From the IMG/VR virus record IMGVR_UViG_3300025141_000664, positions 1 to 25,515 of that record: a DNA stretch of 25,515 nucleotides; one strand, written 5' to 3'. Shown here piece by piece: positions 1,559 through 16,934 of the stretch. The translations under genes and the position numbers were made by a program. Below the pieces are notes generated by a model. It saw nothing but the letters and a program-made list of their open reading frames with translations, did no database searches and was not told the DNA's origin. Positions within the stretch are counted from its first letter, which is position 1. Every line of letters begins with the position of its first letter. Origin of the DNA: a virus.

Positions 1559-2551
1559 TTAACAAGGCTCCTCATCAATGGTGGTATAAAGGTCTCTGTT
1601 GAACTTAAGCCGACTACCGTTGGAGGTAATATCTTGCGCTGTCATTCCTATAGTATTCATTATGTTATAGGGGAGTTCATCATCTAAATACAAATTGAAA
1701 TAATATTCAACATCTCCAACATTTGTTTTAGTATTCCCTAAAGGCTGCGGAGCAGAAATTGTGGTTGGTTCAGTTTTCATAAAGGACATTTGTTGTATAA
1801 CAGTGGTTCCAACAGCAGAACCAGTTCCTTCGGACTCAAAAAATACTTCAATTTCGAAGTTTTCTTTTTCAAAATTTGTATTTCCTTCAAGGATCTCTAA
1901 TACAAGAAAATCTTCGCGTAACGCCAAATAAAGATTAGGATCACTTCCTGGATCGGTAAAATGGCCACTAATTGCATCGGTCTCGAATTCGCCGGTGCGA
2001 AAAAAGATTTGATAATCTACGTCGATGTTTAACTGCGGGATTCGCGTAATTACTCCGTCCAGGAGGCCGGCTGTGCTGGAAGACGGGTTGGTAACGATGT
2101 ACTCTTGGGTCGAATCAATTGTATTATGAAGAGCGTTGATGGCCCAAGCTGCGGTTTTGTCCGATGACATATCTCCCGTCCCAATAGGATAAGATGAGTA
2201 ATTACTCCTTTCCGTAAAAGATTCCTGATGGAGGGCCTCGGTATTATTTGCTGGGTCTGAGCTGTTCCCGCCGAGGGCCCCTTCCACACTCGCAATAAAT
2301 CTAGTAACTCGTTCCTCAGCACTAGTTCGGGTTGGAATTACTTTCAAATTCGGAGTTTCATGCCGAATTCTTCGGTCGATATCATTTTGGGGTTCTGCGA
2401 GGGTTCCCGCATACTCAGAATTATACAAGATCTCATCATCGTAAAAACAATAATATACAGGATCGAGCTTTCCAAGAGACAGCAAATATTTCCCATATTC
2501 GGTCAATTGGACTTCAAGAATTTCTTCTTTCTTATTAAAAAACTCGGCCAC
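1559..2551 (-). CDS. Unrecognised 330-residue phage structural protein (GTG start)
   Basis: The frame opens with GTG at 2549-2551 and ends with TAA at 1559-1561. The GTG start is preferred because AGGAG lies 10 nt upstream and a second AAGG lies closer. The first in-frame ATG is only near residue 128, which would remove the distinctive N-terminus. That N-terminus (MAEFFNKKEEILEVQLTEYG, then KYLLSLGKLDPVYYCFYDDEILY) is rich in charged and aromatic residues and looks like a small conserved head domain. A Ser/Asn-rich middle (about 90-160) and a beta-rich C-terminal half (about 165-325, with FEIEVFFESEG and VEYYFNLYLDDELPY) follow. No enzymatic motif, signal peptide or membrane helix is visible. 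It starts 3 nt after the giant LamG gene and stops 1 nt before the next gene. I infer a baseplate or tail accessory protein and cannot name the family. Confidence 0.72.
   Translation of the reverse strand: MAEFFNKKEEILEVQLTEYGKYLLSLGKLDPVYYCFYDDEILYNSEYAGTLAEPQNDIDRRIRHETPNLKVIPTRTSAEERVTRFIASVEGALGGNSSDPANNTEALHQESFTERSNYSSYPIGTGDMSSDKTAAWAINALHNTIDSTQEYIVTNPSSSTAGLLDGVITRIPQLNIDVDYQIFFRTGEFETDAISGHFTDPGSDPNLYLALREDFLVLEILEGNTNFEKENFEIEVFFESEGTGSAVGTTVIQQMSFMKTEPTTISAPQPLGNTKTNVGDVEYYFNLYLDDELPYNIMNTIGMTAQDITSNGSRLKFNRDLYTTIDEEPC
1568..1572 (-). promoter_or_regulatory. Shine-Dalgarno AGGAG for the gene starting at 1557
   Basis: The minus strand reads AGGAG here, with a 10-nt spacer to ATG at 1557. 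The site lies inside the last codons of the upstream 330-residue gene, so the two genes are probably translationally coupled. Confidence 0.7.
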
Positions 2552-2554
2552 TTT

Positions 2555-5500
2555 TTACCTTCTCCTTCTGCGACGGCGACGGCGACGACGGGGTCTACCA
2601 CTAAATAGCCCTAATGGATCGAAAATTCGCTGTAATACTTGCCTCACACTACGCTGACGAGTTTGTGCGCGTCCTCGACGGCGACGATTGGCACGAGTGC
2701 GCCGCCGAGTAGGTCGCGGCGGGGCTGATCGTGTGGGCCTTGTCCGGGTCCGCGTTGTCGGGCGTGGGACAGCTCTACTAGTAGTACTGCGACGGCGTGG
2801 AATCGCCCTAGAAGCACTGGGGCGCCTTCGACGTCTGCGAGGCGGTCTCGGAGTTAGTGTCCCGGCAATAGCCGAATCAATAATCTCGGGGGGCGGAGAT
2901 ACGGCTGGGGGGATTTCCTCGGGAGCGGGGATAAACTCTCTTAAATCAGGATACACCGGTATTTCTTCTTCGTCTTCTGGTATTATATCTTCTGTGGTGT
3001 ATACGATGGTTTCGTCTATCTTGACTAGCTCCACAAAGGAGAAATAATCATAAGGCCAATTATAGGAATATTTGGTGTCAAGAGCCGGTTGGACAATGGG
3101 TAATCCTTCAGCTAAGCCCTTCCTGGTAAAGACATTGTAGTCTTTTTCGGCCCTTCTCTTAACTTTAAAAACCATCCACTGTAAGTTCTGATCGTTACCG
3201 AGCATCTGGTCGACCAAATCTGTGACTTGAATAAGCGCTGTGGATTTCTTGAATGTAGAGGCTATTCCGGGTGCGCAATTTTGCCAAATGTCCATCAGGT
3301 CTTTTTGAGTTAAATCTAAACTAAATTCAAATGCGTAGAATGCAATGGGCTTTACCGACCGATGTAATAAGAAATCAAATGTTGGTGGGAAAACGTACTT
3401 ATTCAAGAGGGCCAGTTGGGTCACATATTCTTGCGTGCGGAGGGGGACATCAAAGAATTTCCTGTCTCCCCTGACCGTGAGAAACGGCACACATACAATT
3501 GCTTCTTCGACTTTTTTAACCTCTGCAAAATCTCCAATTCGTTTTTGAGATGGTGTTATACCAACTATCTTTGTTAAGGGCTTCACATCAATAAAACCGC
3601 CGTAAGTGGAGGAACTATATTGCTGAGGCATGTCTCTAACAGACAAATGAATTCCTTCGGAGCCTGATGGGAGATTACCGTATTGATGCCACATGCCCCG
3701 AATGTATGGCTTGTTCTGCCAGGGGGCTACCCAGGCCGACAAGTCGCCGTCGGCGTCGTCGTTGAGCCTAACATAGAAGGGGGCGCCACCGCGCTCGTCG
3801 GTATCCCATGCTCCGCGGAGTCTAGAATATACATAACTGGGTGACGCTGAGGATGAAGCGGGGACACCAAAGAAGTTTAGCACTGGAGCTTCAAATTTAG
3901 GTTGGATAAGCCAACGCGCCTGTTGTGCGTTGGTATCGGGCGCAACAACCAGCAGTTTTTCGAAAATGTCAACACTTGAAGTAATTTGAGGTCTTACTAC
4001 ATCATAGCCCGGCGCATAAGATTTCAGGCGCAAGCGCTCCATGTTGGAGCCCACGAAGGTTTTTCCTTTACCAAGTACATTAATATCTGCCGAGTCCTTA
4101 ATAAATTCAGTAACACGATTGCCTAGGATATCATCCAATGTCGCTTTGCCCGAATAAGGAGCTTTGAAAATTATGTTGGCGACACATTGACCATACCAAT
4201 GAGGGGGGAGCCATGGCTCATAACTTATGAAGTCGCGGGTGCCGGTGCCGCCGGGAGAGCCCCTTAATTGTACTGCTGGGCCAAAAGCTGAATCTCGACT
4301 ATACATTCCAAACGTCTTTTCAAATGGAAAGCCAATCTCCGAAGCAGACAAATTGGTTCGTTCAAGCTTTATTTGCAATCCATAGTATTGATCTTTTTCA
4401 ACCGATAAAAATTCTTCCTCGGGCTTCGAAAGAAACGATTTAAGCGGCGTTTGGAAGAAATTTATTGTTTCGCAGAGGAAGTTATCTATACCCCACTTAT
4501 ACAACGGGCTACGAGAAGAGCCCTTGTACTGAATATGAGGTGTAGAACCATCGCTAGCTAGCCCCAAACTAGCACTGAACATTCCCGTATCGTACAAATA
4601 CATCTCTGGATGTAAGCCTGAAGCAACATTGCCTCCAGCAGATTGGATAGCTTCTTGAGACAGATAGACGTCGGGATCCCTTATGGCCTCAAAGGGTATT
4701 GGTTGACCATAGAAGCTGGGGTTGACGTCGTCCGAACCAATATACAAAGCCTTCGAGCCACTCGAAACAATTCTTAATGAATAAAATGGTGAATTCGTGT
4801 CCGCATTAGAGTCGACCTGGCCGAGATGGTGATAGCCCGTTCCATCCAGATTAGACTCACGATAGCCGCCCTGGCCGGAGGAAACGAGATTACCATTAAA
4901 AAGTGAAGAAGTAGTCGACACATCGTATGAGGAAGTGAATGTGAGGGCCCGAGCATTGTGGTTATCTCCGACGAGAACGAGACTGCTGCATGCAATTCCT
5001 GACTTAATGGTATTAAACAAAATTCCCGGAGCCATAAGTGGTTCTAATAGGATCCTTTTAGTAATTTTTTGGGCGCCGCGCCAGTAGCCAACGTTGGTTT
5101 TGGGAAAGGAATAAATGGGGCCAAGTGACTGCGATAACAATCGGCCGAGTTCTATCGTTCTTTCTGCTGGATAAAAGCCTTTATAGGGAAGGAACTGTAG
5201 AAGTGCGTCGCAACTCAGCTCTATGGTATGCCGTCGCATTTTTTCGCCGGCGGCGTTGGCTCTATCCGCAAGCTCTCCATCAACCACCTTAAAATACTTC
5301 ATAAAATCTGTCGCTGAATAAAGTTGGTAGAACTTTCCGTTCGAACTATCCGGCACCGTTGCCCCAGTTAAATTGAATATATTATCAAGCTTCGTAAGAA
5401 AATTGGTACCCTCTTCTTCTACGAATGTTCCCAAATGCTCACTAATTCTAAACTCTGGAACAATGGACATATTTTTGCCCAACAGTCTAATGGTTTTTGT

Positions 5501-8500
5501 ATAGTCGTCATAAGGTTGGTAGGGGGCCGAGGCCGATTCGTACGCTGTCCATCTTTGTCCACCAATAAGAAGGCCGCTCCCTTGAATAGCATTCGTGCTG
5601 CCTGTAACCGTTTGGCCGCCGCGAATAGGCATCGTATAAGCAAGCGACGCAGTTACACCACTAACTCCTTTAGTGGTATAATATCCAAATCGTGCATAAG
5701 TATTTTGAAGTTCGCCGGCGCCTGATCCCAGATAGCCGTCACCATCGGCTGCAGGCATCACGCCTCCGCCCTGTATCTGATAACCAGGCATACCACCGAC
5801 AAGACTTGCACCGCCCGCGCTAAGATCGGCACCAGTCAAGTTAAGGGGGGCATCGAGTGGCCATATGCTTTCGCCGGGCTCTAAGAAGCCTTGAGAATTG
5901 GGCACCGCAACAGGGGCAGCAGAACCAGTATAGCCGGAAGTAGATGGGCTGATATGCCCCGGAGACGGCATCGACCGAAGGCGCCGCACATCTTTCCAAA
6001 TGTCTGAAGTATCATACCTTTCTCTCTTGTTCACCTGTGGTTTGGTAGTATTGTGGGCCCGGGGAAAAATCTTTTGTCCATACCTCACGATCGTGCTTAA
6101 GCTGGAATCAAACGTATAATCAACTATTGCATTAAAAGCATTCCCTTCGGCAGGATTAATACGTCGGTTTAGACCGAGGCGCCAATTAAGCCCTTGGTTT
6201 GTAAAATAATCTAAATTATTTTGATAACTGACCTTCAATGTCATGTTATTGGCTTTATCCCCGCCGGCATTATCTTCAAAAGTAAACTCAATTGGTTTTG
6301 CCGTGTCATAAACTACTACCGGTTCTCTATAGTCAGTAAAATTATTAGATTTAAGGCCGCGGCCGAGGGGACGTCCATTGGATGCTCTTATTAAGGGAGG
6401 CGGATGAAGAAGGCCAATTAAATTGTTCTCTCTTAGTTTGCGCGCAACTGGATGGTCGCCCGTTCTGGTTTGCTTCCAAATCGGGTAACCGTAGGGACCG
6501 TGGCGTTGACGCAACATGTGATTAAACATGATAGGATGAAATGGAGCCGCCGGGACGAACTCAACATCGTTAAGCGCTCCGCCGTAGGAGACTGAACCGG
6601 TTGGGAAAACAGCATTAGTTGCGTATCGGGCACTATTTAAACCATCAGCAGAGAGGGGACTATTGTCCAGCCGGTTCCAATAAATTAAATGCGGAGAAGT
6701 TTGCGGAAAATGATTGAGGTCCGCCGTCATGCCACCCTCATACATTTCTTTTATGCCCGCGGCATCGGCGGCAGTGTTGGGATTAAATCCCCGAGAGTAG
6801 ATGGCTAGATCGGCTATCAAACCATTAAAACCGCTAGCGAAGTCTTTGGTGTCGTGGCCGATTCGGGCGCCGTAGGTACCAATTGCGTATGGATCGGTTA
6901 CAGCTACTCCGCCGCGGTCATGTACCCCGTTGATAAAGAGGTGCATGAGACCAGTTGCACCGCCCGTGAACGTGAACACAACATGATGCCATTCCTTGGT
7001 TCCCATCACAGAAGTTGATTCAATCTTTTGGGTTCCTTGGTTCCAGAGGATGCCGCGCAACATGAGATCGTCGGCATCTGCGCCACCGCCGCCTTTGCGG
7101 TCGATATACATCGACCTGAGGCCCTCATTGGAAGCCTCGCGACCAACAGAAAATATGTACCCGGCGTCGGTGCCGAAGGGTTCGAGGAGGTTAACCCATG
7201 CTGCAATAGTAAATGGCAATGCAGCAGCGTCGACGCCGCCAATCCAGCCGTCCCAGGAACTCGGGTCGCCGTATCCTACATCGACGCGAGCGCCGTCGCT
7301 TTTATTAAATTTCCCCACTGTTCTTGTTCTATGAATCGGAATATCAGTTGGGGGAGACTCAATGGTCCGTGGCTCACTAAGATATCCCAAAAGATGGGTT
7401 CCAACAGATGCAGACTCCACAATGGGAACGTGCCATGGCATAAACGGAAGCTGAGCATCATTATAATAAGGATCATAACTAGAAGTTTGGAGCCCAGTTA
7501 ATACCGATGCGCTTATGCAACTTGGAGCCTGGAGGCCGAAAATTCTAGGGCCGCTGGTTCCTGGGATGGCGCCCATGCCATCGAGGTAGGTCCAGCCCGC
7601 GCCGTCGGCGATCGGCGGCCTTTGATTAAGGCGCACCATCGATCCAGTAACCCAAGAATACTGTGATGTAGACCGAGGGATTTGATGCTGAATAAACTGG
7701 TTATCATAAAATCGTTCGGATATAACTTGCATTGGTGCAGTTTCCAGGCCTGTGCGAGATTTGGACTGACCTGGGATGTTATAGGGATATCTCGCCATGT
7801 CAAGGCCGCGCTGCATCACCATATATAAAGGGCGCAGGCTTTGGTCGATCGGCCCAGCGCCTTGAGCAACGCTTGTCTGGTTAGCGTGGTTAATGAGATT
7901 ATAATTGATACCCTGATCATCGAGGGGCCCGTCGCCGGCACTTGGGTCGAAACGTGCCCAGACGAGCAAGTTATCAGAGAGCAATCTCTGAGTAGACAAA
8001 GAATTGGCCGCGGGATATAAAGATTGATTAGTTATGGGAGCAATAACCCGATTGTTATACAAGGCGGTCACCTCATCAGGACCCAAGCACCGGTTCCAAA
8101 TCAAAATGTTAGCCATGGCGCCGTTCCAGTATCCCTGGCCAGCGGCGGAGTTGGAGGAACGGCCGAGGTACATGCCGGAAGCTATGGAGTCCGGGTCATC
8201 CAGGTTGTAGGCCCCCTCGGTCGTTGTATCGTCGACGGCATCAACGTAAATCCTCATACTAGGACTATCAGAGGCGCCACCAGGGTCACCGCCGGTGAAG
8301 GTTGCTACTATATGATACCAACGTTGGGCCTCTAAAGTACTCGTTTTACTCCAACCGGCCGTGTCGCCGGCGATGACGAATGAGATCTGGGATTCGGATG
8401 CCATAAAGCGCAAGTAGCGATCCCCGACGCCCCACTCAAAGAGGGTACCAGGTTCGCTAAGACCTACCTCATTTGCATAAACCCAAGCTGAAAACGTAAA

Positions 8501-11500
8501 CGGTTTTGCCTGGGCGCCGGATCCGCCCATGAGCTCGCCGAGGACCCCGGCCGTTGCACCTATATCGATACCAGAGCTGCTCCCATTAAACTCGCCGACA
8601 TAAAGATCAGTGGCTCTTATCCTATCTCTCGCATTCCTATTAGTTTTGTGATAGGCCGGAGACTTAACATAGGTATCAGCGAATACCTCGCCATAGGCGG
8701 GGTCCACGCCAAAAGGTCCACAATGGAGGGTTTCTAACTGTCTTAGGCCCCGCGTCCGTCCAAGTTGATCGACCACATGGATGGTGCCGGAAATATCTGA
8801 AGAATTTAGAGGATTTGTGCGCTGCGGAGGCATCCCAGACCCGGTGGCTGGCCAACCAGTACCACCAAAATTAAGCGTGAGCGGACTTCTATAAGGGGTG
8901 GCATTATAAACCGAGAACTCTTCGTGGGCTGGGTCCATGTAGCCTCGGGACCTCACTTCATAGCCGGCGCCGCCGGCGGTGAAGCGATTTACAATGATTG
9001 ATTGGTTAGAGTCTGCACCCATGCGGGCCGGAAGAGAGTAGTCTAAATTGCCGCTTACATTTTCTGTTAAGCTGCCTATAGCACCATACTGCAGAGAGCC
9101 AGATTTATTCCGATCTATGCCACCGTTTGACATAGAAGTGTCAAACCCTGTATATGCTGGGTTCGTCAGATTTATAACATCGTATATGGGCTGACCAGCA
9201 GCTGTAAAGCTGTCGCCCGGGTAATCTCCTAAGGGATACCATCTCAAAAGACCGGCTGGTGTCTCCCTTTGTGGATTTGCGCGCGCCCCACCATTATAGA
9301 TTGTTTTTATTTCAGCCGCGGATAAAACCCTATCCCAAACGACAAAGTCACACATATTGCCGCTCCAAAAATAAGAAGAGCCGCCGCGGGCGCCTAGGTA
9401 GCAGTCCGAGGTCTCGATATCATCGCGGTTCTGAGTATACGTAACACTATTATTTAAAGCACCATCGATATAGAGATTCATGGTGCCAGCATTATATTGT
9501 GTAACCACATGGTACCATCTATCAGGCTCGATGCTCCCGCTGGTGCTGTCTAATCTTCGCGACCAGGGTGAGGCGGTGATAGTCACTTGAAATTGAATGT
9601 GAGTAGGCCAGGATGCTCCATCTATACTAAGATTGACGTCATGGTTTCCAAAGTTCCAGATCTTGCCGGCATTGGTAGGGTTGCCGGAGTTGTTGCTGCG
9701 GTTCTTAATCCAGCAGGAGATAGTGAAATTTTTAGCGCTAGCTCCAGTGCCGCCGATGAGGGGGTTCCACTCCTCGTGGTCGCCCAGATCGACGAAGTTT
9801 TCGCCAGCCGAGTCCAAAAGTATTGAATTACCCAAAGGAGGCGCGAGGGGGAATCTTCCGCGAGTTGCCAGTGTCTCAGGAGTCAACGCAAAATTGAATG
9901 ATTGGTCGTTAAAGAAGGGATCGTTTTTCTCGCGCGCATTGCTTTGAACAACCTCATAATTCTTTGTATAGTTGCCGATAGGGCCATGAGCCAATACGCC
10001 AGAAAGACTGGTTCCCACAGAAGATGTGGTCATCTTAACATTTTGGATATTAACCGGGCGCTTTGTTCCAACATTTCGCAAACGATGCCCGGTGGGGATG
10101 TCTTTGTTAAAGCCGTCGCTACTGGCAGCATCGTCATAATTCGGCGGAACGATACCAAGCATCGGCGTCAAAAAGCTCTGGTGGCCGCCGCCAGTAAAAT
10201 CCGTTACATCAACTATAGCAGGGCCGCTGACGTTTGCAAGAGCGGTGGCAACATTACCAATAACCCCAACAGTGTCCATAGTAAGTGTAAGTTGAGTGTT
10301 GCTTGAACCTTCGGCTGCCGTAATGCCCGAGACGCCTGCAGTGCCTCTTGAACCAGCACTCGCCGGGATTATACGAGAATTAGAAGTATTATTTATAGCT
10401 CTTTTGATCAAGGTTGCGATGCTCGAATCTGATTCGCCAAGAATACCAATACCAATTTGATCTGCAGCGGCTGGAGTACCAGTGGTTTCTGAGGCATCTA
10501 AAAGTATTGTGATTGCGCCAGCGCCGCCCGTAGTATCCCCGCCATTTGCTGCAGGAATCGTAATCGTAATCGTACAATCGCCGCCATCTGCAACTACACC
10601 AGTTGTATCAATTGCATCTACTGCGGTTGCGGCAGCGTTGTCCGCGGAAGCCACATGATCAAATTTGAGTTTCCAGCCTTCTGCACGATAAAGAGAATTA
10701 TCAGAGCCCTGGTTCAATTCGGTATGGCGATACTGGCGGCCTCCTACATACTTCTCTGGGAAGGGGCCCTGCATCGGCGAATCGCTATTATTCACAATGT
10801 CGTGATGAAGGTTGGTAATCTCTATTTCTGGTGCGTAATTCTCGATAACCTGCAGGTTCTGCCCGGTCGTAACCGAAGAAGAGTAAATACTGAAGGGGGC
10901 CAAGAGGTTGCCGTCCCCCTTATGAAGAGTGCTATCTGCTCGATTGATGTCGGGGTTCATTTGGAAACCAAGACGTTGCTTATAGGTAGGCCAATATACA
11001 TCTTTGGTGTCTATTAGCTCTTCAACTTCGTTACGGAAGCCTACCATCACATTTTTTGCGGCGCGGCCGCGAAGGCCTCCGAATGGAGAAGTTGCTACGA
11101 ACACAAAGTCAACTTTCTTATTAATACCAAACCCTACTCCACCAAGAGTAGAATTACCTTCAGCCCCAAATTTGTAAGGAGTCTGCTGTGCTCTGGAGTT
11201 CGACTCTATAGTAGACTTGAGTATCACTTGCTTATTTTTAAGGGCAGCAGGGTCAATATCGGGGGTCGGCTCCACCAGCGCGAGAGTATTTCTCGCCGCT
11301 TCCGCTCGCCACCAAATAGAATTCCTATCTAAAGGTCCGAAGGCTTCTCCCAACTCTGGCGGAGGAGCGTGCTGAAATTTCCAATTTCTAAAATTGACTG
11401 GTTGTGATGAACCAATTTGTCGCCTGCCTTGTGCGTTTGCAGAGTAAAACCCAGTTCCAGTAGCATCACTGTCCGGGGAGGCGTCTTGAACCGCGCTGAG

Positions 11501-14500
11501 GTCAATGGGCTGGAGGATCCCTTCGGGATCGCCAAGTTGCTTCTTAACATTTTGAAACTTACTTTGATACTTGCTGCGTTCCAGCATATGGCTCTCAATG
11601 ATGGTGCGAACATTCTCTGCAAAATCAGCAGAGGCCGGGACAAGCTGTTGGAGCATTACCGTTAATGAAGAGTCAAACCACTTATAGAACTCATAGAATT
11701 TTTCAAAATCAATTTCGGTGTTGCCGACTCTTTCGAAGAAGCGTTGGCGCAGAAGTTTCAAGCCCTTATATTCTGGCCGGTAACGATTTACAGGAGCTCC
11801 GATAAGGTTATTAACATCTTTGAGAGTGGCAAAGTAGTTAATCATCTCCGCCGAAAGTGCTTGGGCCATACTCTTTTCAAACGCAAAGAAGTAATTTATG
11901 GGTCTCGAATCTCGTGTAAGTATCTTTTGTTCCTGGGCGCCCAAAACTGTCACCATGTCGCTAGACTGTACGTTCTCGGGCAGTTGAAGCTTTGAAGAAA
12001 TCACATGGTCTTTGTCGACCACCTTTATTGACGAGGCCTTGAAGTTCTGACCTTTACCGGGGAACTGTATACCCAGGAAATTTCCAAGCCAGTCGAATCT
12101 TGAGCCAGCTGTGACAGCCGAACCGGAATACTGATCTATAACAGTGAACTCGCCGGAGGCATTAGAACCAGTATTCTGGGAAAACTCCCAGTTAAACATT
12201 AGAGTATCGGCTTTTAGTACCTCGCCAAAGGAGGCAGAAGGAAGAAACGGAAACGCATAACGATGCGGCTGTAAGGAACCATAATTTAAGGTGTCAAAGG
12301 CATGGCCGACAAGAGTAGCATCCTCCACATAATCTAACCAATAGCGACAGGCGTTAACTTTGACATCCGACGTTTCTAAAATTGAGCCGGTGAAATTAGT
12401 CCTATGCGCGCCGATGTAGGCTCTCTTGCTGCCGGTTACAAACCCGACGGGGGCGCCGGGAACATCGCCAGTTAAGGTGAATTCGTTTCTTACGACTCCA
12501 GCATCTAACTGCACACCGTGGAGTTCTATAACATAGTTACTGATTTCGCCAACAGCAGGAGCACCCAGCACCTGGCCGGCTTGAGGGTAATTTACTGGCT
12601 TGATACGTACTGCCAAATTCCAATATGTGTTGTCATAAACTTCTTCATAAAGATCGGATACCAGTGGGGGCACCCTTCCGCCAGCAGTTCCTGTGAGCAC
12701 AAATCGAACGCTATCAGAAGTTAACTCATCTCGAACAGCGTAAACTTGGAAATTTGTGGTATCCGTTGGGGATGTTCCCCACGTGGTAAAATCTTCTGAA
12801 TCATGGGCTGTATGCACACCAAAGAGGGAAGCACTTATAGTATTTGTATTATAATAGAATGAGGCGCCTTCATCGGGCTTGAGGGGGAAGAGAATGTCCG
12901 CCTCTAACGTCGTTGCAAATCCGCCGCTGAGTCTCGTGTTGGCAGGTATAAATCCTGTGGTGTTGGTAGTGTCTGCGGGATCTTGAAACTGGAATACAGT
13001 GCCGCCTCGATTATCTTCGGTATTAAAATCGATAAATTTGTCTACAACCGAAACAGTGCGCCGATTGTCTCGAATCTCATATTCAATTCCATTAGCATAC
13101 ATATTCAGTTTGACGAGCTCGTCGTCAATGCCGAAACAACGAATCAGATTACGGAAGGCCTTTTCTGTTCCTTTTGTCTTGTAAATGTAAACTAAGTTGT
13201 TGTAGATATTCTGATAAATAGTGTTCTTGACGTCTGCTAGTGATTTTTCGTACAGTCTGTCCTCGCTGCGATCAGCTAGCTTTTCCAATACGTCGGCATC
13301 GATAAAGAGCTCGGGAGCCATAAGACCCGAAGATCTTAATAAACGATCTGCGAAGGGCAATGGCTTCTGGCTGCCAGAAGCATAAGTTATGTCTTTTAGA
13401 TTAGATAATGATTCAACCTGAAGCTGTAAAGTGTCAAAATAACTTGACATTATTTGAATAAGTTGTTTTAATTGCCTCTGTCCTTCTTCGTCCTCTTCAG
13501 TAATCCACGACGGAATAGAATTATATATGGCCGCATTATTGTTAATATCATATTCAGAACCAGTTAACTGCAGTCGGTTGGCAAGTCCCGATACTTCAGG
13601 ATGGAAGGCGTAGATGATTGGATCTTTAAACTCTTTAATCGCAGCATTTGATAATACAATCGCTGAGCCGGTTGCGCGAGAGTCAGAGGTGTAGCCTGTC
13701 CAGGTACCATTGCTAATGCGGCCAGAATAATCAAGAACCACTGAATCAGTGGCCGCTACTCCTGTGATTCCTTCATTGAATTTATAGTAAACACCCAAGT
13801 TGGTGTTAGCTTTTTCACGAGTTTCTTTAAAAGGCTTCGGATCATCATTTGTGCCGCCGCCGACTTGAGTAAACCAATGGCGGCCGATCTGTTGGCCGCT
13901 ACGCTCGGTTTTCCAATAACGAAATTCATCCAACGAGGCCGAGAGTTTGCCGGCATATGCTGCAGCCGAGGAGCTTGCGGGTGTTGCAATCAGAGCACCA
14001 ATGTTTGCTCGCAACGCTCCCGTAACTTCATTAAGGTCCATTGAGGTGCCAAAAACGGCAGAATTATTCAAAGTTCCGTCTAAATAAAAATTACTTAAAA
14101 CGCCGTTAGAAGCTGACATTAAGGTAAGACCATAATGGTGCCACACGCCGTCGGCAACAGCTTCGCTAGTAACGGTGCTGGCGGCTACCGATTGTGCCTC
14201 AAAACCGTTAGAACCGGATAGTACTGTTAAACGAAAGCAATCCGCGCCGGAGGCACCAGTTAGTTCTAATCTAAGACGCCCATAACCGTTGCCAGAGCCG
14301 GCGGTGATGTCAGCTACATCAACTACGCTAACACCACTGACATCTGCAAATACACTGGCATCGTTCCAAGCCGCCCCACCATGATCCATAGTAAATGTAA
14401 TTTGGGTATTGCTGCTGCCCTCGGTTGCCGTCATGGGTGGCACACCGTATTGGCCCCTTCCAGAAGGTGCGTAAATTATACGAGAATTGGAGGTACCATT

Positions 14501-15379
14501 TATGGCTCTTCGGATTAAAGTTGCAATACTCGAATCTGATTCGCCGTTGATGCCAATACCAATCTGATTAGCGGCCGGGGGGGTACCAGTCGTTTCCGAG
14601 GCATCTAAAAGTATTGTGATTGCGCCTGCACCCCCTGTGGCATCTGCATTGGGGACCTCAAGACGAATGTTAAACGAGCAATCAGCCCCAGATGCAGCCA
14701 CGCCAGTTGTATCAATTGCGTCTGTTGCTCCGGCTTTAGTCAGCTCCCTGCCATTCCAAAGATCGAAAATAACTTCTTTTTCTGTCTTTGCGGTGTCAAA
14801 AGCCTCCTTTTTGAGCCAAAACTCAATAGAAACGCCCTTGCTTAATAAATCAAACTTTAAATTATTTTCCCGATTTAAGGCAGGCTCATAATAATTTGCC
14901 CCCGTAAACTGAGTCGAATAGGGGATCATCCCGTCCGGATTAGGATGAGGTCCGCCTTTAAGATAAATGTATTCTAAATCGGCAGGGAGACCATAGCCCT
15001 CTGAAATCGAACTTTGGGTGCCCCACTCGCCGGCGGATAAATTAATGTAGCCGTTAGTTCGTGGATACTCTTTATCAAATACATGAAGGTCTAAGTAGGT
15101 GCAGCTATTTTCCCATTCCAGCCTCTCTTTAAGGGAGCCGTCATAAGGATACTCTTCATAAATTTTTCTTAAGGCTAGGGAGTAATACTCTTCCGCTGAG
15201 CCGTATCGAGCAAAGTTTTTAGGGAATTTAAAATTGGCCCGTGGTATAAAGCGCTCTTCGCGGATTATATCCTCGGCGTGGTACCCAGCAGACTCTACCT
15301 CATCGCCGATTTGAGCGGCCGATTTGTCAGATAGTGCTTGGATAGACTTTGCTTTATCGTAATAGTCCTTAAAACCCAT
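2555..15379 (-). CDS. Giant (4274 aa) baseplate protein: gp7/tail-protein-I-like N-terminal part, five LamG-type modules, Arg-rich tail
   Basis: The uninterrupted frame starts at ATG 15377-15379 (an in-frame TAG lies two codons upstream, so it cannot start earlier) and stops with TAA at 2555-2557. Residues 1-165 form an N-terminal region with YPYDGSL and FDKEYPRTNGYI. A LamG fold (about 165-510) is split by an inserted module (217-361). Residues 620-770 include IYQNIYNNLVYIYKTKGTEK and AFRNLIRCFGI, a pattern like the tail-protein-I/gp7 family (helix, Y-x-x-K-G-T, short helix, G). A diverged LamG-like domain spans about 795-1015, and a helical segment about 1155-1280. A second copy of the inserted module is at 1586-1731. 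Three further LamG domains lie near 1852-2035, 2262-2450 and 2689-2890, each with the W-Y/H-H-V strand and a Y/F-I-D/N-G-type hairpin. A long beta/mixed region follows, then an acidic Pro-rich stretch (4131-4168) and an Arg-rich tail. T4 gp7 is about 1000 residues, so this is a great expansion. Placement after gp25 and gp6 genes supports a wedge role, with LamG modules likely binding host glycans (inference). A side-fibre or adhesin role is the alternative. Confidence 0.85.
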   Translation of the reverse strand: MGFKDYYDKAKSIQALSDKSAAQIGDEVESAGYHAEDIIREERFIPRANFKFPKNFARYGSAEEYYSLALRKIYEEYPYDGSLKERLEWENSCTYLDLHVFDKEYPRTNGYINLSAGEWGTQSSISEGYGLPADLEYIYLKGGPHPNPDGMIPYSTQFTGANYYEPALNRENNLKFDLLSKGVSIEFWLKKEAFDTAKTEKEVIFDLWNGRELTKAGATDAIDTTGVAASGADCSFNIRLEVPNADATGGAGAITILLDASETTGTPPAANQIGIGINGESDSSIATLIRRAINGTSNSRIIYAPSGRGQYGVPPMTATEGSSNTQITFTMDHGGAAWNDASVFADVSGVSVVDVADITAGSGNGYGRLRLELTGASGADCFRLTVLSGSNGFEAQSVAASTVTSEAVADGVWHHYGLTLMSASNGVLSNFYLDGTLNNSAVFGTSMDLNEVTGALRANIGALIATPASSSAAAYAGKLSASLDEFRYWKTERSGQQIGRHWFTQVGGGTNDDPKPFKETREKANTNLGVYYKFNEGITGVAATDSVVLDYSGRISNGTWTGYTSDSRATGSAIVLSNAAIKEFKDPIIYAFHPEVSGLANRLQLTGSEYDINNNAAIYNSIPSWITEEDEEGQRQLKQLIQIMSSYFDTLQLQVESLSNLKDITYASGSQKPLPFADRLLRSSGLMAPELFIDADVLEKLADRSEDRLYEKSLADVKNTIYQNIYNNLVYIYKTKGTEKAFRNLIRCFGIDDELVKLNMYANGIEYEIRDNRRTVSVVDKFIDFNTEDNRGGTVFQFQDPADTTNTTGFIPANTRLSGGFATTLEADILFPLKPDEGASFYYNTNTISASLFGVHTAHDSEDFTTWGTSPTDTTNFQVYAVRDELTSDSVRFVLTGTAGGRVPPLVSDLYEEVYDNTYWNLAVRIKPVNYPQAGQVLGAPAVGEISNYVIELHGVQLDAGVVRNEFTLTGDVPGAPVGFVTGSKRAYIGAHRTNFTGSILETSDVKVNACRYWLDYVEDATLVGHAFDTLNYGSLQPHRYAFPFLPSASFGEVLKADTLMFNWEFSQNTGSNASGEFTVIDQYSGSAVTAGSRFDWLGNFLGIQFPGKGQNFKASSIKVVDKDHVISSKLQLPENVQSSDMVTVLGAQEQKILTRDSRPINYFFAFEKSMAQALSAEMINYFATLKDVNNLIGAPVNRYRPEYKGLKLLRQRFFERVGNTEIDFEKFYEFYKWFDSSLTVMLQQLVPASADFAENVRTIIESHMLERSKYQSKFQNVKKQLGDPEGILQPIDLSAVQDASPDSDATGTGFYSANAQGRRQIGSSQPVNFRNWKFQHAPPPELGEAFGPLDRNSIWWRAEAARNTLALVEPTPDIDPAALKNKQVILKSTIESNSRAQQTPYKFGAEGNSTLGGVGFGINKKVDFVFVATSPFGGLRGRAAKNVMVGFRNEVEELIDTKDVYWPTYKQRLGFQMNPDINRADSTLHKGDGNLLAPFSIYSSSVTTGQNLQVIENYAPEIEITNLHHDIVNNSDSPMQGPFPEKYVGGRQYRHTELNQGSDNSLYRAEGWKLKFDHVASADNAAATAVDAIDTTGVVADGGDCTITITIPAANGGDTTGGAGAITILLDASETTGTPAAADQIGIGILGESDSSIATLIKRAINNTSNSRIIPASAGSRGTAGVSGITAAEGSSNTQLTLTMDTVGVIGNVATALANVSGPAIVDVTDFTGGGHQSFLTPMLGIVPPNYDDAASSDGFNKDIPTGHRLRNVGTKRPVNIQNVKMTTSSVGTSLSGVLAHGPIGNYTKNYEVVQSNAREKNDPFFNDQSFNFALTPETLATRGRFPLAPPLGNSILLDSAGENFVDLGDHEEWNPLIGGTGASAKNFTISCWIKNRSNNSGNPTNAGKIWNFGNHDVNLSIDGASWPTHIQFQVTITASPWSRRLDSTSGSIEPDRWYHVVTQYNAGTMNLYIDGALNNSVTYTQNRDDIETSDCYLGARGGSSYFWSGNMCDFVVWDRVLSAAEIKTIYNGGARANPQRETPAGLLRWYPLGDYPGDSFTAAGQPIYDVINLTNPAYTGFDTSMSNGGIDRNKSGSLQYGAIGSLTENVSGNLDYSLPARMGADSNQSIIVNRFTAGGAGYEVRSRGYMDPAHEEFSVYNATPYRSPLTLNFGGTGWPATGSGMPPQRTNPLNSSDISGTIHVVDQLGRTRGLRQLETLHCGPFGVDPAYGEVFADTYVKSPAYHKTNRNARDRIRATDLYVGEFNGSSSGIDIGATAGVLGELMGGSGAQAKPFTFSAWVYANEVGLSEPGTLFEWGVGDRYLRFMASESQISFVIAGDTAGWSKTSTLEAQRWYHIVATFTGGDPGGASDSPSMRIYVDAVDDTTTEGAYNLDDPDSIASGMYLGRSSNSAAGQGYWNGAMANILIWNRCLGPDEVTALYNNRVIAPITNQSLYPAANSLSTQRLLSDNLLVWARFDPSAGDGPLDDQGINYNLINHANQTSVAQGAGPIDQSLRPLYMVMQRGLDMARYPYNIPGQSKSRTGLETAPMQVISERFYDNQFIQHQIPRSTSQYSWVTGSMVRLNQRPPIADGAGWTYLDGMGAIPGTSGPRIFGLQAPSCISASVLTGLQTSSYDPYYNDAQLPFMPWHVPIVESASVGTHLLGYLSEPRTIESPPTDIPIHRTRTVGKFNKSDGARVDVGYGDPSSWDGWIGGVDAAALPFTIAAWVNLLEPFGTDAGYIFSVGREASNEGLRSMYIDRKGGGGADADDLMLRGILWNQGTQKIESTSVMGTKEWHHVVFTFTGGATGLMHLFINGVHDRGGVAVTDPYAIGTYGARIGHDTKDFASGFNGLIADLAIYSRGFNPNTAADAAGIKEMYEGGMTADLNHFPQTSPHLIYWNRLDNSPLSADGLNSARYATNAVFPTGSVSYGGALNDVEFVPAAPFHPIMFNHMLRQRHGPYGYPIWKQTRTGDHPVARKLRENNLIGLLHPPPLIRASNGRPLGRGLKSNNFTDYREPVVVYDTAKPIEFTFEDNAGGDKANNMTLKVSYQNNLDYFTNQGLNWRLGLNRRINPAEGNAFNAIVDYTFDSSLSTIVRYGQKIFPRAHNTTKPQVNKRERYDTSDIWKDVRRLRSMPSPGHISPSTSGYTGSAAPVAVPNSQGFLEPGESIWPLDAPLNLTGADLSAGGASLVGGMPGYQIQGGGVMPAADGDGYLGSGAGELQNTYARFGYYTTKGVSGVTASLAYTMPIRGGQTVTGSTNAIQGSGLLIGGQRWTAYESASAPYQPYDDYTKTIRLLGKNMSIVPEFRISEHLGTFVEEEGTNFLTKLDNIFNLTGATVPDSSNGKFYQLYSATDFMKYFKVVDGELADRANAAGEKMRRHTIELSCDALLQFLPYKGFYPAERTIELGRLLSQSLGPIYSFPKTNVGYWRGAQKITKRILLEPLMAPGILFNTIKSGIACSSLVLVGDNHNARALTFTSSYDVSTTSSLFNGNLVSSGQGGYRESNLDGTGYHHLGQVDSNADTNSPFYSLRIVSSGSKALYIGSDDVNPSFYGQPIPFEAIRDPDVYLSQEAIQSAGGNVASGLHPEMYLYDTGMFSASLGLASDGSTPHIQYKGSSRSPLYKWGIDNFLCETINFFQTPLKSFLSKPEEEFLSVEKDQYYGLQIKLERTNLSASEIGFPFEKTFGMYSRDSAFGPAVQLRGSPGGTGTRDFISYEPWLPPHWYGQCVANIIFKAPYSGKATLDDILGNRVTEFIKDSADINVLGKGKTFVGSNMERLRLKSYAPGYDVVRPQITSSVDIFEKLLVVAPDTNAQQARWLIQPKFEAPVLNFFGVPASSSASPSYVYSRLRGAWDTDERGGAPFYVRLNDDADGDLSAWVAPWQNKPYIRGMWHQYGNLPSGSEGIHLSVRDMPQQYSSSTYGGFIDVKPLTKIVGITPSQKRIGDFAEVKKVEEAIVCVPFLTVRGDRKFFDVPLRTQEYVTQLALLNKYVFPPTFDFLLHRSVKPIAFYAFEFSLDLTQKDLMDIWQNCAPGIASTFKKSTALIQVTDLVDQMLGNDQNLQWMVFKVKRRAEKDYNVFTRKGLAEGLPIVQPALDTKYSYNWPYDYFSFVELVKIDETIVYTTEDIIPEDEEEIPVYPDLREFIPAPEEIPPAVSPPPEIIDSAIAGTLTPRPPRRRRRRPSASRAIPRRRSTTSRAVPRPTTRTRTRPTRSAPPRPTRRRTRANRRRRGRAQTRQRSVRQVLQRIFDPLGLFSGRPRRRRRRRRRRR
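2558..2848 (-). other. Arginine-rich C-terminal tail of the giant protein
   Basis: By my count 43 of the last 104 residues (4171-4274) are Arg and none is Lys. There is a run of six Arg (4181-4186), clusters such as PRRRS, PTRRRTRANRRRRGR and RQRSVRQ, a short hydrophobic island IFDPLGLFSG, and a terminal run of eleven Arg. The first run uses CGC, AGA, CGT, CGA, AGG and CGC, so the amino acid appears to be selected rather than a DNA repeat. The composition recalls protamine-like or nucleic-acid-binding arms, but no function is established for it here. Confidence 0.8.
2562..2566 (-). promoter_or_regulatory. Shine-Dalgarno AGGAG embedded in arginine codons
   Basis: The last four codons of the giant gene are AGA AGG AGA AGG, followed by TAA and then the GTG start of the next gene. 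These codons create AGGAG 10 nt before GTG at 2551, and an additional AAGG closer in. The preceding seven arginine codons are all CGN, so the switch to AGR codons coincides with the need for a ribosome-binding site. Confidence 0.75.
2876..2989 (-). other. Acidic, proline-rich spacer before the Arg-rich tail
   Basis: Residues 4131-4168 are dominated by Glu, Asp, Pro and Ile (PEDEEEIPVYP, PAPEEIPPAVSPPPEI). It directly precedes the arginine tail, giving a sharply charge-segregated, probably disordered C-terminus. Confidence 0.7.
6710..7315 (-). other. LamG/concanavalin-A-like module (giant protein residues about 2689-2890)
   Basis: Typical LamG order is visible: GKFNKSDGARVDVG, then LPFTIAAWVNL, then IFSVG, then EWHHVVFTFTGG, then LMHLFINGVHD, then ARIGHDTKDFASGFNGLIAD and IYSRG, ending in IKEMYEGG. 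A post-LamG strand, HLIYWNRLD, follows. Family knowledge: such jelly rolls bind glycans or proteins, often with calcium. The ligand is unknown here. Confidence 0.8.
8030..8596 (-). other. LamG/concanavalin-A-like module (residues about 2262-2450)
   Basis: It shows the same order as the neighbouring module: GEFNGSSSGIDIG, KPFTFSAWVYANE, LFEWGVGDRYLRF, RWYHIVATFTGG, MRIYVDAVDD, MYLGRSSNSAAGQGYWNGAM and ILIWNRCLGPDEVTALYNN, followed by NLLVWARFD. Confidence 0.82.
9275..9826 (-). other. LamG/concanavalin-A-like module (residues about 1852-2035)
   Basis: Visible elements are NFVDLGDHEEWN, KNFTISCWIKNRSNN, IWNFGNHDVNLSIDG, DRWYHVVTQYNAG, MNLYIDGALNNSV, CYLGARGGSSYFWSGNM and FVVWDRVLSAAEIKTIYNGG, followed by LLRWYPLGD. 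It is a canonical full-length LamG-3-type jelly roll. Confidence 0.85.
10187..10624 (-). repeat. Second copy of a duplicated module of about 145 residues (residues 1586-1731)
   Basis: This copy begins AVDAIDTTGVVADGGDCTIT and contains the same 20-residue core (TGGAGAITILLDASETTGTP) as the first copy at 14297-14731, plus GESDSSIATLI and EGSSNTQ. A 29-nt stretch at 10491-10519 is identical to 14598-14626. It is flanked by non-LamG sequence (WKLKFDHVAS before, HQSFLTPMLG after), so it has been placed in an unrelated loop of the same protein. Confidence 0.85.
12335..12997 (-). other. Diverged LamG-like domain (residues about 795-1015)
   Basis: The order of elements is LamG-like: TTLEADILFPL, SLFGVHTA, FQVYAVRD, VRFVLTG, NTYWNLAVRIKPV, YVIELHGVQLDAG, RAYIGAHRTNFTGSIL, then VKVNACRYWLDYV. 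It lacks the W-H-H-V strand and is more diverged than the other modules, so the assignment is weaker. Confidence 0.55.
13070..13492 (-). other. Tail-protein-I/gp7-like helical segment (residues about 630-770)
   Basis: A helix-rich segment reads YFDTLQLQVESLSNLKD, then ADRLLRSSGL, then DVKNTIYQNIYNNLVYIYKT, then KGTEKAFRNLIRCFGI. The arrangement resembles the conserved N-terminal part of P2 gpI, Mu gp48 and related wedge proteins, where helices precede a Y-x-x-K-G-T turn and a short helix ending in G. The match is by eye, and the location just after gp6 supports it. Confidence 0.5.
13850..14887 (-). other. First LamG module, interrupted by an inserted module (residues about 165-510)
   Basis: LamG strands are present on both sides of the insertion. 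Before it are LLSKGVSIEFWLKKEA and KEVIFDLWNG. After it are YGRLRLELTG, GVWHHYGLTLMSAS, LSNFYLDGTLNNS, ANIGALIA, YAGKLSASLDEFRYWKTERS and a post-domain strand NLGVYYKFNEG. The inserted module (217-361) lies between the second and third recognisable strands. Confidence 0.75.
14297..14731 (-). repeat. First copy of the duplicated module, inserted inside a LamG fold (residues 217-361)
   Basis: It begins ATDAIDTTGVAASGADCSFN and ends VVDVADITAG. It shares a 20-residue identical core with the copy at 10187-10624 (residues 248-267 here, 1617-1636 there) and clear similarity over its whole length. The nucleotide identity extends to a 29-nt exact match (14598-14626). The composition (G, T, A, D, few aromatics) suggests a small Ig-like or beta-rich domain. 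I do not recognise a named family. Confidence 0.85.
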
Positions 15380-15389
15380 GTTCTAATTA

Positions 15390-16934
15390 TCAGTCAACTC
15401 TAAATTTAAACGTTTGTGGCTGTTCTTGCCATGCACCTATACTATCATTATAATAGGATAAATTTATCCTATACATATATCCCGGTTCTAATAGCGACAT
15501 GTCTAAATCGAAGTAATTACCTTCCTTATCGTAAGACAAATAAGTACTATAACTGGATCCAGTCCCATACGGGATCGCGTTATAGTCATCCGTGGTGCGC
15601 CGGATGTTATATGAAGCACTAGTGATAATTTGTGTGGGATTATTGGCTGTCGCCTTCACATAAATCGTTGGATTCCAATTTCTATCGCGAACAAAAAACC
15701 TGAAACGCGCTGTGTCGCTCGTAGAATAAGACTTTTTAAGGTTTCTGCAATTCGTTATTTGAGTAAAGGTTGGCGCCGAATCATAGGTGGGCATGTGCTC
15801 TGGGAAAATAGAGCCTGTAAAATACTGGATTGTCCCAAGAGTATGCGGGCCGCCGCTGGACTGGTTATGCCATACATCATACATAACAGTCAACCCCTTT
15901 GGTAGCTCCGTCGAAAGTGCAGCGGTTATGGCCATCTCGGCGGAATAAACACCCCTGGACACCCAAGAAGCTGTCGTATTGAGATTGCCGTCATATAGAG
16001 TTAACTTTGAGCCGGTAGGAGCTGTCGAACCTGAAAAAAGGGAAACCATCAGAGTACTCCCGGCCTCAACCACTGGAATATTTACCAAGCGCCCACGGAT
16101 ATAATTGTATAAATATAGTTTATTAATATTGTCCTGAGCCGGCGCCAGTGAGCTAGAATAATAGAAATTTTCTCGATCGTCTGAAACACGCGAATCCCAG
16201 CGGGCCTCAATCACAGGCCGCTTGAAGAAAAATTCGCTAGATCTCGCAAAAAACTTCTTGGTATAATAAGATTGCTGTGCACCATTCGTATTGTTGATAA
16301 TTTTTCCTGTGTCGGCCCCCGTAGAACTAGAAAAATAAGCTTCCTCACTAGCTGTTAACCGCAAGCCCAACCCATAATTGCTGTAGGTGCCGTCAACCCA
16401 CTGTTCTACAATACGAGTTATGTCTAATTCAACGTCTTCAAAGCCCTGTGCAAAATTAATAGTATAAGTTGAACCCGGATCCTGCGTGATATAATCTCCC
16501 CCAATGTTGGTCCACGTGGTAGAGTCATCGGACTTGATCCAATTAGAGGCTCCCAGATCCTGGTAATTGTCCATGTCAAGTCCGGTTCCCTCTACCCAAG
16601 AGCGCGAAACCGGTGCCACAGTCAAATTAAAGTCCTGTGGAAGAGTAAACGGATGAGCGGCGTTAAACATCCTAAGATAGAAGGATACGCTTCCGCTAGC
16701 TGGGATAGTGCCGGCCGTTCTATCGGCCGTAATAGAAGTAATCGGGAATCGTACTAGAGTTCTCGATAGTTCCTGGGATTGTCCCGTCGTGCCCGATACT
16801 TGTCCATAAATTGAAAAGATTTCTAATGAATCGGCATAACCCATATTTGAGCCAGTTCCACGGGTAGCAAGATCCGCTTCAAAAGCATTTGTGATAGTAT
16901 TGTCGATGTCTGCGACATACCTGGCAATTGCCAT
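15390..16934 (-). CDS. Baseplate-associated protein with DNRLRE/CBM96-like beta-sandwich
   Basis: The frame runs from ATG 16932-16934, overlapping the TAA of the upstream gene by one base (TAATG), to TGA at 15390-15392, giving 514 residues. A weak AAGGA lies 11 nt before the start. Residues 35-200 follow the DNRLRE pattern closely: SRTLVRFPI (strand), SVSFYLRMFNA, TVAPVSRSWVEGTG, a Trp-containing loop (NWIKSDDSTTWTNIGGDY), then FEDVELDITRIVEQWVDGTY and SNYGLGLRL. In bacteria this module is found on surface and polysaccharide-active proteins. The remaining 300 residues are beta-rich (LTLYDGNLN, ARFRFFVRDRNWNPTIYV, GYMYRINLSYYN) and unassigned. There is no signal peptide, consistent with a virion component. 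It lies between gp6-like and gp7-like genes, so it is probably a wedge-bound decoration or fibre-attachment protein (inference). Confidence 0.75.
   Translation of the reverse strand: MAIARYVADIDNTITNAFEADLATRGTGSNMGYADSLEIFSIYGQVSGTTGQSQELSRTLVRFPITSITADRTAGTIPASGSVSFYLRMFNAAHPFTLPQDFNLTVAPVSRSWVEGTGLDMDNYQDLGASNWIKSDDSTTWTNIGGDYITQDPGSTYTINFAQGFEDVELDITRIVEQWVDGTYSNYGLGLRLTASEEAYFSSSTGADTGKIINNTNGAQQSYYTKKFFARSSEFFFKRPVIEARWDSRVSDDRENFYYSSSLAPAQDNINKLYLYNYIRGRLVNIPVVEAGSTLMVSLFSGSTAPTGSKLTLYDGNLNTTASWVSRGVYSAEMAITAALSTELPKGLTVMYDVWHNQSSGGPHTLGTIQYFTGSIFPEHMPTYDSAPTFTQITNCRNLKKSYSTSDTARFRFFVRDRNWNPTIYVKATANNPTQIITSASYNIRRTTDDYNAIPYGTGSSYSTYLSYDKEGNYFDLDMSLLEPGYMYRINLSYYNDSIGAWQEQPQTFKFRVD

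Follow-up and report, generated by a model that had tools for sequence, protein, structure and literature searches.

The window analysed here is a complete IMG/VR virus fragment of 25,515 bases, and all of its large open reading frames lie on the minus strand. The longest of them, which encodes 4274 residues, begins with an ATG at position 15379 and is stop-free throughout; that it occupies half of the window follows from the window being the entire 25.5-kb virus fragment. Upstream of this giant gene are genes for a gp25-type and a gp6/gpJ-type baseplate wedge protein and for a 514-residue protein, and a gene for a 330-residue protein follows downstream (Table 1). Two further frames are partial, one of 526 residues and one of 2117 residues whose product is perhaps a hub or tail-tip protein. 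The giant gene is located directly downstream of gp25, gp6 and the 514-residue gene in all 66 relatives with sufficient upstream sequence, and the 330-residue gene follows it in all 42 relatives with a complete giant frame; such a conserved order of three upstream genes and one downstream gene is far beyond chance. At two more distant loci, those of Flavobacterium phage immuto and Microcystis phage Mel-JY01 (L081 and L192), other genes take the place of the 514-residue gene between gp6 and the core-encoding gene. In G001, a 165-kb relative, the downstream neighbour and a second protein (70958-71905 and 78199-79125) have the N-terminal motif F..KEE.LD..LTEYGK..L..GK..P.YYAF.DDDILY in common, which suggests a paralogous pair.

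Table 1. Genes of the window and parts of the giant protein. Residue numbers refer to the giant protein; limits of LamG modules are those of the family HMM.
Feature	Position	Strand	Evidence
Gene of the giant, putatively wedge-type protein	2555..15379	-	447 related IMG/VR stretches; full-length relatives of 2783-4325 aa
gp25-type wedge protein, 127 aa	18756..19139	-	PF04965, E 5.9e-12
gp6/gpJ-type wedge protein, 598 aa	16934..18730	-	PHROG wedge families, 4e-20; Mel-JY01, 1e-78; immuto, 9e-59
514-aa protein between gp6 and giant gene	15390..16934	-	weak Disaggr_repeat match; same position in 66/66 relatives
330-aa protein, conserved downstream neighbour	1559..2551	-	42/42 relatives with complete giant ORF
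2117-aa partial frame upstream of gp25	19161..25514	-	peptidoglycan-binding domain near C-terminus, PF01471, 1.2e-6
Residues 1-216, conserved N-terminal block	14732..15379	-	40 of 40 full-length relatives, with HSPs ~58% identical
Residues 176-498, N-terminal LamG, universal in the family, split here by an insert	13886..14854	-	family HMM, 176-231 and 336-498
Residues 216-366, first ~150-aa module, inside N-terminal LamG	14282..14734	-	covered in ~7-17% of full-length relatives; HMM matches; alignment
Residues 595-760, helical gpI/gp7-like segment, first half of the wedge-like core	13100..13597	-	homology to immuto, Mel-JY01 and LR756508; alignment; model helices of low pLDDT
Residues 732-750, motif IYKTKGTEKAFRNLIRCFG	13130..13186	-	aligns with T4 gp7, P-SSM2 gp7 and P2 gpI at the homologous place
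Residues 772-1132, predicted jelly roll (pentraxin/LamG fold) between core halves	11984..13066	-	predicted model; VIA Z up to 15.6; absent from immuto
Residues 1148-1290, second half of the wedge-like core	11510..11938	-	blastp to immuto (1188-1273) and LR756508 (1128-1270)
Residues 1584-1736, second ~150-aa module	10172..10630	-	~65% identical to first copy; covered in ~3% of full-length relatives
Residues 1863-2035, optional LamG module	9275..9793	-	Pfam Laminin_G_3; HMM 4e-47; missing from compact relatives
Residues 2272-2443, optional LamG module	8051..8566	-	HMM 6e-42
Residues 2702-2886, optional LamG module	6722..7276	-	HMM 1e-35
Residues 2930-4120, conserved C-terminal region	3020..6592	-	in ~90-100% of full-length relatives; model pLDDT 68, pTM 0.74
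Residues 4140-4274, low-complexity Arg-rich tail, last residues R11	2558..2962	-	sequence; variable or absent in relatives

Relatives of residues 600-1300 of the giant protein are encoded in 447 IMG/VR stretches, 80 of which were retrieved for comparison. Full-length relatives (n = 40) comprise between 2783 and 4325 residues, and some pairs are near-identical. Among isolated phages, the core was detected only in immuto gp109 (1265 residues) and, via immuto, in Mel-JY01 WWT39511 (1336 residues); the same route led to a core homologue in the 484-kb uncultured huge phage LR756508. The sole cellular match, to a 4-kb contig of a Flavobacteriales MAG (L238, 36%), is too thin for naming a host. In one relative (L028 / G005) the giant gene is split inside the core into two overlapping frames of 560 and 3557 residues, which is either a real mutation or an assembly error.

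A backbone of conserved blocks (residues 1-216, 366-1590, 1741-1850, 2042-2255, 2540-2666 and 2922-4136) is found in most or all relatives, and the three optional LamG modules and the two copies of a ~150-residue module are inserted between these blocks. The latter module (AIDTTGV...GAGAITILLDASETTGTP...GSSNTQITLTMD), whose two copies in the giant protein have runs of identical DNA, was found in 38 IMG/VR loci (L200-L237), where it occupies several different sites in the giant relatives and occurs also in unrelated-looking frames of ~470-1200 residues; in G007, it is present in two different genes. Judging from its distribution, the module appears to travel between structural proteins of phages. 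For a model of the C-terminal region (residues 2952-4110), none of the PDB matches was convincing, the best having a Z of 3.4. The final ~135 residues are extremely rich in arginine, with eleven arginines at the very end, and may serve to bind nucleic acid or some charged surface; the corresponding tails of the relatives are rich in Arg, Lys or Ser/Thr, or do not exist.

Pfam assigns four stretches of the giant protein to Laminin_G_3 (E 9e-61), while a fifth jelly roll, missed by Pfam, is confidently predicted between the core halves and matches the pentraxin/LamG fold. Assignment to the LamG/ConA-like lectin domains is hence by profile for four modules and by modelled fold for the fifth. The initial annotation, which described a single 4274-residue frame with five LamG-type modules filling half of the window, was exact as to the frame, for which homologues with conserved flanks exist, and right as to the share of the window and the number of modules; jelly rolls do fill much of the remainder of the protein, as it had proposed. 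The N-terminal LamG, placed at residues ~176-350 in the family-wide comparison, is present in each of 41 full-length family members, over which the modules were counted, and is accompanied by zero to four further LamG modules at fixed junctions, so that the total varies from one to five. Since these further modules are optional inserts, the length of the homologues varies over the wide range given above. Comparison with the near-identical relative L003 reveals 85-95% identity across most of residues 1-1600 (73% in 1301-1400), a drop to 26-43% over residues ~2200-2950 and a return to 66% at 3001-3100, a pattern of replacement rather than slow drift. LamG modules are apparently gained, lost and altered in the manner expected of parts in contact with the host, and we infer for them a role in glycan or receptor binding. 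In the long-relative records, nearly all LamG matches are located inside the giant gene, apart from one match to a 307-residue frame in G004 and another to the 560-residue fragment of the split G005 gene.

The wedge-like core itself consists of two separated halves, and is common to immuto gp109, Mel-JY01 and LR756508. Alignment with immuto gp109 has an hhalign E of 4e-11, with residues 610-761 and 1188-1273 matching immuto 409-578 and 664-745. Fewer than 90 residues lie between the halves in immuto, which is devoid of the jelly roll, whereas the spacing amounts to several hundred residues in the window protein as well as in Mel-JY01 and LR756508. In both immuto and Mel-JY01 the core homologue likewise comes after gp25 and gp6. 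A helix motif in the first half, YKTKGTEKAFRNLIRCFG, aligns weakly, and at the same spot, with the third wedge proteins T4 gp7, P-SSM2 gp7 (5195 residues) and P2 gpI, and in profile comparison the motif YKTKGTEKAFRNLIRCF is the top match on T4 gp7 736-752, P-SSM2 gp7 207-223 and P2 gpI 54-95. A helical segment with the YxSKGTExs...L motif was taken as a mark of third wedge proteins, and its alignment here, weak in absolute score, was controlled by column shuffling: the individual matches have hhalign E-values of 0.013-0.08, and 1, 7 and 6 of 200 shuffled profiles reach the scores observed for T4 gp7, P-SSM2 gp7 and P2 gpI, respectively, but none of the 200 places all three proteins on the motif.

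Taken together, several weak but agreeing lines suggest that the window protein is probably a greatly enlarged third wedge protein of a marine contractile-tail phage, with the role of T4 gp7, P2 gpI or R2 pyocin Tri2 and with built-in, exchangeable lectin modules, a reading in which we place reasonably good confidence. The split helical core would then bind a gp6-type dimer and gp25 and build each of the six wedges, with the pentraxin/LamG-type jelly roll sitting in the loop that follows the KTKGTE motif of the core. The long C-terminal scaffold would bear further LamG modules at its fixed junctions, where they could be gained, lost or replaced, and with six copies of the protein the edge of the baseplate would be ringed by lectin-like modules. 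These modules would most likely touch glycans of the host surface, alone or beside separate fibres, and host contact might be passed via gp6 and gp25 to the sheath. The scheme builds on what was observed for the order of the genes, the homology of the core, the optional, hypervariable modules and the jelly-roll fold, and borrows the surface position, glycan binding and signalling from T4 (PMC3004832) and XM1 (PMC10457771).

The initial annotation had gone further in reading the locus as a fusion of wedge and lectin that replaces separate fibres. Third-wedge identity and LamG content are supported, the former by the order gp25-gp6-(514 aa)-giant gene, by the core shared with immuto, Mel-JY01 and LR756508 and by the motif that aligns with three known third wedge proteins. 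Replacement of fibres is not: in G001, a 409-residue protein matches tail-fibre PHROGs (5.8e-8) and is flanked by a pair of repetitive proteins of similar appearance, and genes for tail fibres and spikes are annotated in immuto, so that separate fibres are probably not replaced and the reading was rejected. Moreover, 15 of the 41 full-length members possess the N-terminal LamG alone. It is more likely that the lectin-type modules act alongside fibres. The same two observations, fibre-like genes and members with a single LamG, are also what would be expected if the protein is a third wedge protein in which LamG modules serve a structural purpose, that is, wedge-to-wedge contacts, spacing or the stability of a two-layered baseplate, while separate fibres do all of the recognition. 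We consider this unlikely, albeit worth keeping in mind, since the central modules are optional, vary in number and are replaced between near-identical relatives, which is usual for host-contact parts but unusual for load-bearing ones. As a separate observation, G001 has, close to its tail genes, a cluster of genes for sugar-nucleotide, epimerase and glycosyl-type functions (105358-119969, judged by eye) which recalls the host-recognition clusters of pelagimyophages.

A second alternative concerns the wedge assignment itself: the giant gene could encode a baseplate-edge or fibre-type protein within a wedge operon, with the true gp7/gpI being another gene, for example that of the 514-residue protein or of a very divergent protein elsewhere. 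Consistent with this, the window protein exhibits no match to the curated wedge families PF09684, PF10076, PF21427/8/56 and TIGR02242 (which include the Tail_P2_I, Gp7 domain and Phage_Mu_Gp48 families), and TIGR02242 matches weakly on immuto, at the core motif, and on a single relative. Against Mu gp48, the core showed no signal where one was expected, and the second core half matched neither T4 gp7 nor P2 gpI significantly; PDB profile searches with the core and its helical part returned chance-level matches only (e.g., CooA and aminotransferases), and close-relative scans with T4 gp7 and P2 gpI retrieved nothing beyond the families of these two proteins. The AlphaFold model of residues 590-1310 reaches good confidence in the jelly roll alone, with pLDDT of ~25-65 in the helical part, and the Foldseek and VIA lists for this model contain pentraxins, PAPP-A and laminin domains but no wedge protein; the wedge fold for which the initial annotation had proposed a structural check is not confirmed by this model. 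Finally, another gene does lie between gp6 and the giant or core gene in the window family, immuto and Mel-JY01. Sequence profiles are, however, often blind at such distance, and the lack of a curated match therefore lowers formal membership rather than the functional reading. What argues against this alternative is that (i) the motif agrees with three known third wedge proteins at one spot, (ii) the core follows closely upon gp6 in every relative that could be assessed and is single-copy in the seven long ones (90-165 kb), with the gene split over two overlapping frames in G005 and with one gp25 in each, (iii) these seven records, which are possibly incomplete, contain no separate Tail_P2_I, TIGR02242 or T4-gp7-type match, such a homologue being what the initial annotation had named as a refutation (the window itself is only a 25.5-kb fragment), and (iv) the 514-residue protein offers a weak Disaggr_repeat match only. 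Hence, we regard a non-wedge protein as improbable. A chance open frame or an assembly chimera, for which nothing speaks except the length of the frame, has a negligible probability and is ruled out by full-length homologues on many contigs with conserved flanks.

A close counterpart of the window protein is gp7 of the Prochlorococcus phage P-SSM2 (5195 residues; NC_006883), annotated as a baseplate wedge subunit, which is likewise giant, marine and encoded right after gp25-gp6, and which has the same KG-type motif (207-223). In P-SSM2 gp7, ~2200 residues separate the T4-matching pieces 192-269 (blastp E ~1e-4) and 2493-2549 (weak). The two giants nevertheless exhibit no BLAST similarity, and the window protein has no phrog_2885 match; P-SSM2 gp7 contains a YHYH domain and no LamG, and the portion of it that matches T4 gp7 starts close to the N-terminus, whereas the core of the window protein begins near residue 595. 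T4 gp7 (1032 residues; PDB 5HX2, 5IV5) also has a helical segment with the motif (734-751) and then an inserted domain (domain V, 766-861, right after the motif), but it is four times smaller, is devoid of a Pfam LamG and resembles the window core at the level of the motif only.

P2 gpI, which aligns at that motif, R2 pyocin Tri2 (PA0619) and XM1 gp17 are small third wedge proteins (176-242 residues) without built-in lectin-type modules. XM1 gp17, the orthologue of T4 gp7, has two attachment sites for spikes, a loop of the core domain (80-106) for one set and the C-terminus for another (PMC10457771), and these are the two kinds of place at which the window protein carries lectin-type modules; by analogy, the XM1 core loop may be the place where the jelly roll is inserted here. 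Immuto gp109 and Mel-JY01 WWT39511 have the homologous core in the same operon but are far smaller than the window protein, and in immuto the annotated genes for fibres and spikes come next. In pelagimyophages and cyanomyophages, baseplate proteins of the VrlC type have been reported to substitute for T4 gp7, and ConA-type domains were described in unidentified proteins of the VrlC structural operons, without being attributed to VrlC itself (PMC7029224); we found no link between VrlC and the window family. Giant third wedge proteins are thus already known from cyanophages, as exemplified by P-SSM2 gp7. What is new is a separate and abundant family, the presence of LamG modules inside its proteins and the plug-in pattern of these modules; we found no description of this family in the open-access literature.

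Through this assignment, hundreds of giant open frames from ocean viromes that lacked an annotation are connected with the baseplate wedge. In addition, a single loop within the gp7/gpI core stands out as a site where insertions recur; it accommodates ~100 residues in T4, ~2200 residues in P-SSM2 and a jelly roll here, and may correspond to the core loop that bears spikes in XM1. The family provides a testable case of host-contact parts located within the wedge instead of on fibres. It is tempting to speculate, albeit only tentatively, that in a widespread marine lineage the wedge is the main receptor-binding array, with a fixed scaffold on which lectin modules are swapped between near-identical phages, such that host specificity would change without a change of fibres. 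If the proposed reading is right, LamG modules could help to predict the hosts of uncultured marine phages.
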